DNA of 64,000 nucleotides. Source: Thioploca ingrica (GTDB lineage Bacteria > Pseudomonadota > Gammaproteobacteria > Beggiatoales > Beggiatoaceae). This document shows positions 2,378 through 30,695 of this stretch, piece by piece (the stretch's first letter is position 1; every line of letters starts with the position of its first letter). The notes beneath the pieces are model-generated. The model was not told the DNA's origin. It made no database searches and saw only the letters and a program-made list of their open reading frames with translations. The DNA is taken from positions 1,612,001-1,676,000 of the forward strand of contig AP014633.1 of NCBI GenBank assembly GCA_000828835.1. Direction: 5' to 3'. A program made the translations under genes and the position numbers.

Positions 2378-2606
2378 CTTCCCAATTGGACAAAGGGGAA
2401 TTGAGGGGGATTTTTAGATTTCAACCACCTAAATCCCCCCTAATCCCCAATGCCATTAAGTTAAGCTAGGGCGAACACGTCGGTTCGCCCCTACAGCCCA
2501 TAAATACGTGGGGTTTGTAGGGGCAGACCGGCGTGTCTGCCCTTAACTTAATGGCATTGCCCCTAACCCCCCTTTGAAAAAGGGGGGAAGTCTTAATTTA
2601 ATGGCA
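2378..2606. repeat. G/C-rich MITE-like repeat, interrupted by a second repeat
   Basis: This intergenic stretch matches, in reverse orientation, the repeat at 30429-30560: both carry the phrases gagggggattttta, atttcaacc and cctttgaaaaagggggg in the same order, and this copy ends with cttaatttaatggca (2592-2606). It is split by the 110-base element at 2449-2558. The left terminus seen in the other copy is not recognisable here. No gene is visible in 2309-2706. Confidence 0.7.
2449..2558. repeat. 110-bp MITE-like element with perfect 17-bp terminal inverted repeats
   Basis: The left end aatgccattaagttaag (2449-2465) is the exact reverse complement of the right end cttaacttaatggcatt (2542-2558). 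Inside, two further palindromic arms face each other (around gggcgaacacgtcggttcgcccc and its diverged partner gtaggggcagaccggcg), so the whole element could fold into a long cruciform. C-rich tracts of similar sequence (ccccctaatcccc and cccctaacccc) lie on either side, as a target-site duplication would. A second copy lies in opposite orientation at 28372-28478. Confidence 0.8.
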
Positions 2607-13705: not shown

Positions 13706-13846
13706 CACTGCCGTCAACTTAAGCGATTATTCTCTCACTTTACTTCCGGGGTAATCAGGAAGATTAGCTTGGTTATCTATCAACCGATTAAATTCCCTCT
13801 CACCCCCATTTTTCAAAGGGGGGAACTCCTTAAGTTGATGGCAGTG
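13706..13846. repeat. MITE-like element with 18-bp imperfect inverted ends
   Basis: The left end cactgccgtcaacttaag (13706-13723) pairs with the right end cttaagttgatggcagtg (13829-13846) with one mismatch. The ends resemble those of the elements at 2449, 28372 and 30429 (gccat-aa-ttaag type), and the interior has the same ttttcaaaggggggaa phrase. It appears to be a diverged member of that family. Confidence 0.65.
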
Positions 13847-28310: not shown

Positions 28311-28371
28311 CGTGGCTTGAACTCTGAGCAAGCGTCGGGTCACTACCATTAAACTAAGCCAGCGTAGGAGC

Positions 28372-28478
28372 AATGCCATTAAGTTAAGGGCAGACACGCC
28401 GGTCTGCCCCTATAAAATACCACGTCGGTAGGGGCGATGTGTTCGCCCTAACGCCCAATTGCTTAACTTAATGACATT
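28372..28478. repeat. 107-bp MITE-like element, inverted copy of the one at 2449
   Basis: The left end aatgccattaagttaag (28372-28388) is identical to that of the element at 2449. The right end cttaacttaatgacatt (28462-28478) pairs with it with one mismatch. The interior is in the opposite orientation to the copy at 2449: gggcagacacgccggtctgc first, then gtaggggcgatgtgttcgcc. It separates the SDR gene from the convergent ATPase and ends three bases before the ATPase stop codon. Confidence 0.8.
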
Positions 28479-28481
28479 GCT

Positions 28482-30171: not shown

Positions 30172-30695
30172 TTGTCAGTATTTTCATCCGTGAGGTGGGT
30201 AGTTTCACGGGTATGAGTTTACATCAGTTCTATTTTCGGTTGAATGACTTTCCGCAATTGAGGTTGGCTATAAAATATAGTCCAACCCATTCTTTTATCC
30301 AACCCTAATTTCTCCCTATTTATCATTTGAGGTTGAGTTTGGCAAACTGGAAGTTTTCAGGTAAATTAATAATATTAGAATATAATAAAATATTGATGAC
30401 AGCAGGTCATTATGGTAGTGCTAACCCCAATGCTATTAAGTTAAGGATTCCCCCCCTTTTTCAAAGGGGGGCGAGGGGGGATTTAAGGGGTTGAAATTTA
30501 AAAATCCCCCTCAATCCCCCTTTGTCAAAGAGGGAAGTAACCAGTCTTAACTTAATGGCAGTGAGTGTTAACCCGGTAGCAACTCGGGATTGTAACTGCA
30601 GTTACGCCAAAATCACTTCCGGTTCAGCGCTACCGTGACTATTGATTTAATATGACTTTGTTATCATTAACTTATAATTATTATTGAGGAAAATG
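30172..30695. other. Intergenic region containing a repeat element
   Basis: Apart from the element at 30429-30560, this 524-base stretch contains no recognised gene. It ends with the ribosome-binding site of the rhodanese gene (gagga at 30686-30690). Confidence 0.5.
30429..30560. repeat. 132-bp MITE-like element of the G/C-rich type
   Basis: The left end aatgctattaagttaag (30429-30445) and right end cttaacttaatggca (30546-30560) are imperfect inverted repeats. The interior has ccccccctttttcaaagggg, gcgaggggggattt and aaaatccccctcaatccccc, which can form long hairpins. Read in reverse it matches the outer repeat at 2378-2606 and shows what that element looked like before the 110-base element entered it. 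Confidence 0.75.

Follow-up and report, generated by a model that had tools for sequence, protein, structure and literature searches.

A very probable IS4-type miniature element inserted into an older relative in the genome of Thioploca ingrica

What is the short hairpin-forming repeat near the start of the window (the 64,000-nt stretch of the Thioploca ingrica genome analysed here), how did it come to lie within another repeat, and what kind of enzyme could have moved it? An earlier note on this DNA had described a 110-bp element with perfect 17-bp termini. Inspection of the sequence bears this out, the exact inverted ends being 2449–2465 and 2542–2558, and one further base pair outside each of them extends the element to 2448–2559, with perfect 18-bp ends (CAATGCCATTAAGTTAAG). 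The C-rich tracts beside it, taken in the same note for a target duplication, form an imperfect 11-bp duplication with a single difference. The features concerned are these:

2448–2559, no strand assigned: element of 112 bp with perfect 18-bp terminal inverted repeats CAATGCCATTAAGTTAAG and a hairpin interior
2437–2447, no strand assigned: target duplication, left copy, 11 bp, CCCCTAATCCC
2560–2570, no strand assigned: target duplication, right copy, 11 bp, CCCCTAACCCC, 10/11 identical to CCCCTAATCCC
2469–2494, minus strand: GTAG-tagged hairpin GTAGGGGCGAACCGACGTGTTCGCCC, GTAG inward, from the sequence and the GTAG test described below
2517–2542, plus strand: GTAG-tagged hairpin GTAGGGGCAGACCGGCGTGTCTGCCC, GTAG inward, from the same evidence

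Short, non-coding and bounded by terminal inverted repeats, the element has the attributes of a MITE, and at 112 bp it is too short to encode a transposase. Its two GTAG-tagged hairpins form a tail-to-tail pair. Folded as RNA, the whole element gives a single long hairpin (–76.8 kcal/mol, z –11.8), and a search of 2300–2700 against Rfam returned six matches, all far under their gathering scores. We consider it very probable that 2448–2559 is a non-autonomous miniature element of IS4 type.

The end pattern occurs 10 times in the window at up to three mismatches, against 0.36 expected, and none of 100 shuffles reached 10. In the whole genome, a single contig of 4.81 Mb, the 14-bp core of the end with at most one mismatch has 114 and 113 matches on the two strands (227 in all), the reversed-pattern control having 2 and 0. 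The family thus has the many dispersed copies of a MITE, and the search for further copies that the earlier note had recommended yielded, beyond these ends, a catalogue of 62 end-bounded elements from genome loci and the window, with a maximum length of approximately 170 bp set by the script. The listing behind it covers 100 exact ends of the 227, which biases the catalogue towards well-kept ends, and a few of its entries are false pairings (e.g. L001:1587 and L006:1455). The number of elements in the genome is put at roughly a hundred.

When the flanks of the 62 elements were compared at lengths of 6–14 bp, 11 bp alone stood out, with a mean match of 0.61 versus 0.33 for mismatched pairs. A duplication of this length matching at 9/11 or better is present in 25 of the 62 and absent at that threshold from 37, a few of the 62 being false pairings. 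A target duplication of fixed length, another mark of a MITE, is therefore found here and also in the foreign elements described below. The 25 duplicated sites share a weak preference for about RNSCKWMGSNY with orientations pooled (4.50 bits; random sites handled likewise gave 0.45 ± 0.16, with a maximum of 1.14 over 500 random sets). Pooling both orientations itself makes this pattern palindromic; individual sites are hardly so, with 1.56 of 5 pairs matching versus 1.31 in the control.

The element at 2448–2559 lies inside a further repeat, of which two parts were delimited by an alignment of joined flanks:

2375–2447, no strand assigned: interrupted older element, left part, with no recognisable left end
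2571–2608, no strand assigned: interrupted older element, right part, with a degraded right end at 2592–2608 (3 mismatches)

In this test both flanks of 2448–2559 were fused and one 11-bp copy was removed. Two alignments of the fused sequence were obtained, each spanning 110 columns at 85%: the first, with a genomic copy (L078), is gap-free, and the second, with window positions 30431–30540, has a single gap that lies clear of the junction. The uninterrupted form of the host repeat had been placed at 30429–30560 in the earlier note, which agrees with the second alignment; the host is of the same kind, in the opposite orientation. Judged by these alignments, the interrupted repeat too belongs to this end family, because its fused flanks match copies L078 and 30431–30540. 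The nesting that the note had proposed is thus shown directly by the gap-free alignment, its host being a relative of the inserted element and no separate kind of repeat, and the duplication, the clean-ended copies and the fused flanks all agree with the insertion that the note had claimed. Among the four nested cases examined, the joined flanks gave 15 spanning matches for 2448–2559 and 20 for L095, and none for L005 or L100.

Three further members lie in the window:

28371–28479, no strand assigned: a second copy whose interior falls in the class of 2448–2559, with no clear duplication (3/11)
30428–30563, no strand assigned: uninterrupted member with a C-rich interior and a 10/11 duplication, AGTGCTAACCC / AGTGTTAACCC
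13706–13846, no strand assigned: member with a variant end type, ends CACTGCCGTCAACTTAAG / CACTGCCATCAACTTAAG

The variant ends of 13706–13846, which resemble those of an ISPa1635-type element (L319), may perhaps represent a second end subfamily. The earlier note had tied its reading to two things, further copies with clean boundaries and empty-site alleles in related strains. The former were found. As to the latter, the congener G001 lacks the 30428–30563 copy at the orthologous spot, where the flanks have diverged, and at the 2448–2559 locus, downstream of the upstream gene, it has no element and a different neighbour gene; this comparison gave no empty allele that is clean to the base.

It might be supposed that such repeats are old copies, spread by recombination or gene conversion and kept as terminators or hairpin signals. 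The strong folding noted above would suit this, as would the position of the elements: as far as a crude ORF prediction shows, none of the 62 lies within an ORF of at least 150 aa, and 19 of the 60 with genes on both sides (32%) lie between convergent genes, compared with 8/45 spaces in the window, where such spaces make up 21% of the spacer bases. Precise ends, 11-bp duplications and nested insertions point instead to transposition, and a terminator role could arise later; indeed, this half of the proposal is compatible with the MITE explanation. We regard spread by recombination as unlikely.

Transposition by an IS4-type enzyme, the reading we prefer, calls for an autonomous element whose ends are of the same type, and the earlier note had advised looking for a transposase with such ends. 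With the E. coli IS4 transposase as query, eight matches were obtained in 5 of 57 genomes, and six of them are flanked by inverted ends 1.2–1.8 kb apart (total length 1211–1826 bp). These ends differ from AATGCCATTAAGTTAAG at 0 positions per end (L238, L239), 1 (L240, L242, L244) or 2 (L241); L240 and L244 are located in the congener G001. L240 has 1360 bp, a 423-aa frame and an 11-bp duplication (10/11); no duplication was seen in the other five (L238, L239, L241, L242, L244). A nearly full-length open frame is kept only in L238 and L240, those of the other four being shorter or broken. All three of the six transposases that were tested pass the NCBIfam model NF033592 (IS4_1), at 142.6, 163.1 and 122.6 bits (cut-off 115), and the same three exceed the cut-off of PF01609. 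The IS4 N-terminal domain PF13006 was found above cut-off in none of the 57 genomes, our own included, L238 reaching 15 bits against a cut-off of 25; this domain is not known to define the whole IS4 family. The Y-(2)-R-(3)-E-(6)-K motif of the family can be recognised by eye in L240 as YYLRWGIETFYGFLK. The seventh match (L237, 1432–2909, in G032) is also IS4-type and has different ends, AATGGCACTTACTTAAG, with an apparent 12-bp duplication AAGCTTTGGACT, which makes it a useful contrast of such a transposase with other ends. The eighth (L243) has one exact end in the available stretch.

Autonomous elements with the ends of the family are thus found at six loci in relatives, and one further example is carried by a plasmid. 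The transposase matched 204 plasmid records, and the ends were inspected in four: one has such ends together with a duplication, two (a Desulfosarcina and an ISPa1635-type relative of the element) have related ends with no recognisable duplication, and one (Saccharobesus) has a single end only. The best match is an insertion sequence of pSulSP from Sulfurospirillum sp. 'SP' (L316, WP_316723176.1), with CACTACCATTAAGTTAAGC on both sides and a perfect (11/11) 11-bp duplication AGCCTCCCCCT. It shares the end type and the duplication length with the family of 2448–2559 and differs in being 1511 bp long, in carrying a transposase gene and in coming from another phylum; its transposase is 38% identical to that of the congener over 91% of the latter. 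These elements and relatives accord with the suggestion of a transposase with matching ends. Plasmid DNA searched with the 2448–2559 element gave no match, and a phage search with the transposase gave two distant matches only, of which one is the IS4 copy of a lambda derivative.

Comparison with E. coli IS4 itself (insG, K-12 record) shows both likeness and distance. Its ends, TAATGCCAGTCAGTTAAG and TAATGCCGATCAGTTAAG, agree at 15/17 and 14/17 positions with the 17-bp end of 2448–2559, and its transposase falls under the same NCBIfam model as the partner transposases; however, its duplication ATCTTGGTTCTG, seen on both sides, is 12 bp rather than 11 bp, and the partner transposases are only 23–29% identical to it where aligned and give no match over cut-off to the Pfam model Nterm_IS4.

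In the T. ingrica genome itself no intact partner of IS4 type was found, only fragments. A profile of the six autonomous transposases, which matches 26 of the 57 genomes (some of the counts per genome being lower bounds), has three matches here at only two places (537 bp at 70.6% identity and 128 bp at 78.9%); both of these remnants reach such an end or stop within 3 bp of one. Other candidates were tried and rejected. The ISAs1 family (PF13808) has two loci in this genome, neither with a pair of family ends, and PF01609 has seven, none bounded by an end pair at up to three mismatches; one of these (L114) has one end and was recognised as the remnant of an IS. At named loci, the ORFs enclosed by widely spaced pairs of ends were ordinary-looking genes, judged by eye from 60 residues each. 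Because only fragments of an autonomous copy are found, the family is probably now immobile in this genome unless a new partner arrives. The view of the earlier note, that a transposase acts or acted in trans, gains an IS4-type candidate from elsewhere, and its past tense is to be preferred, movement here being probably over. As a separate observation, loci L108–L116 of this genome carry DDE transposase genes from two Pfam models, mostly short or broken in appearance, which suggests a loss of active insertion sequences.

The ends are spread widely, if unevenly. Across 36 genomes of the bacterial family, T. ingrica included, the end count ranges from 0 to 918, and the element family accounts for a large class of repeats in these organisms; among 21 genomes of other families one reaches 19 and the rest have 0–7. 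End counts and transposase matches are modestly correlated (Spearman 0.43): no transposase match is present in 4 of the 18 family genomes that have at least 60 ends, and a match, often a weak one, is present in 7 of the 12 that have fewer than 10. When named genomes were scanned for elements of 88–118 bp between exact 14-bp cores, at least 119 stretches were obtained, in which 47 of the 121 foreign elements with sufficient flanks have a duplication at 9/11 or better (control 0.8%). Carriers among the matches listed include Thiotrichaceae, Methylococcales, Legionella/Legionellales, Desulfonema, Desulfococcaceae, Sulfurovum and others. Many of these are metagenome bins, in which contigs may be misplaced, although Desulfonema magnum is a complete chromosome. 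The same ends therefore occur in gammaproteobacterial, desulfobacterial and campylobacterial records.

One member of the family has already been seen in print. Flood et al. 2016 (PMC4853749) describe a MITE in hupL of Candidatus Thiomargarita nelsonii at 1357–1561, with 10-bp direct repeats and 19-bp inverted repeats that share one base. The hupL contig was located in the T. nelsonii genome by the primer given in that paper, and the element there, at 1368–1550 (183 bp, compared with 112 bp for 2448–2559), has the ends of the family and a perfect 11-bp duplication ACTGTTTGGAT; with 11 bp added on each side it corresponds exactly to the published 1357–1561, and the published 10-bp repeat plus the shared base fits 11. 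On its sequence, the hupL MITE is a member of the family of 2448–2559. In PMC4853749 it was published with no parent in ISfinder, and descent from a PD-(D/E)XK (Yhg-A) endonuclease element was proposed, a copy lying within such a gene. That copy may reflect mere insertion there, the hupL element shares its ends and the length of its duplication, 11 bp, with the IS4-type family, and such ends are present on IS4-family elements, so that we see hardly any chance of a Yhg-A origin.

An IS4-type parent can instead be supplied for a family that was published as an orphan. Such a parent was not found by title and abstract in the open-access literature, nor is it named in the passages of PMC4853749 on the hupL MITE; a term search in the available text of a 2024 review of prokaryotic MITEs gave no mention of IS4, Thiomargarita or hupL, and the passages about MITE-like repeats in papers on Thiohalocapsa (PMC10907252) and Coxiella (PMC5896051) do not mention the family ends. 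The MITE kind and one member were known before; within the open-access literature, what appears to be new is the IS4-type parent, together with the spread of the family and the interchangeability of its interiors.

Between like ends, the interiors are unrelated and mostly hairpins. Those of the 62 elements fall into nine clusters without cross-match at E 1e-4 (39, 10 and 7 members and six singletons), 2448–2559 belonging to the cluster of 10. Compared with the bodies of the six autonomous elements they gave six weak matches of 17–29 bp; since nothing convincing is shared, the interiors look captured and not like remnants of internal deletion. Folding exceeds that of shuffles (z ≤ –2) in 48/62 own and 99/121 foreign interiors. 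GTAG beside a 7-bp stem, with one mismatch allowed, was found in 14/62 own interiors (shuffled mean 1.9, highest 6) and in 60/121 foreign ones (mean 3.3, highest 8), related copies being counted singly and the events not independent. The interior of 2448–2559 itself has GTAG adjoining a short palindrome, which is the mark of GTAG REPs. GTAG-tagged REPs and their pairs are described by Di Nocera et al. 2013 (PMC3733652), in whose terminology the two GTAG-tagged hairpins of 2448–2559 stand “tail to tail”; unlike those described there, the pair of 2448–2559 sits within IS4-type ends and a target duplication.

These hairpins raise the question of whether a tyrosine (RAYT/HUH) transposase has spread the repeats as REP-type palindromes, their common ends being no more than hairpin feet. 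The excess of GTAG hairpins over shuffles would favour this, as would a free pair of GTAG-tagged palindromes, GTAG outward and without inverted ends, at L016 1503–1570 (near G000:4399872). HUH transposases are not known to make a target duplication, and the clear 11-bp duplication largely refutes this reading. Moreover, IS4-family elements have these same ends, and by the GTAG test 48/62 own and 61/121 foreign interiors have no GTAG hairpin. The probability we would give to spread by RAYT is very small.

We infer from the sequences that elements of the 2448–2559 family have moved, and the IS4-type explanation would account for this as follows. A DDE transposase from an insertion sequence of this type would bind the 18-bp ends, excise the element and insert it at a staggered cut of 11 bp, with a weak preference for targets of about RNSCKWMGSNY. 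The ends alone seem to be required, so that any segment flanked by two of them could travel; those captured are mostly hairpins, often GTAG-tagged palindrome pairs, perhaps since hairpins are tolerated in the spaces between genes. A wider proposal, which we offer tentatively and think somewhat more apt to fail than to hold, is that the 18-bp end is an interchangeable capsule across several phyla that has repeatedly enclosed unrelated hairpins, chiefly REP palindrome pairs, giving REPs a second route by way of DDE transposases, with the ends served by whichever IS4-type element arrives. The family offers a test case both for the exchange of MITE interiors and for the movement of REPs by a second class of transposase. 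Elsewhere in the genome, palindromes that appear to be GTAG-tagged (GTAGGGTGCGTTA...TAACGCACC) lie beside an IS remnant at approximately 800–890 of L081 (near G000:3151400).
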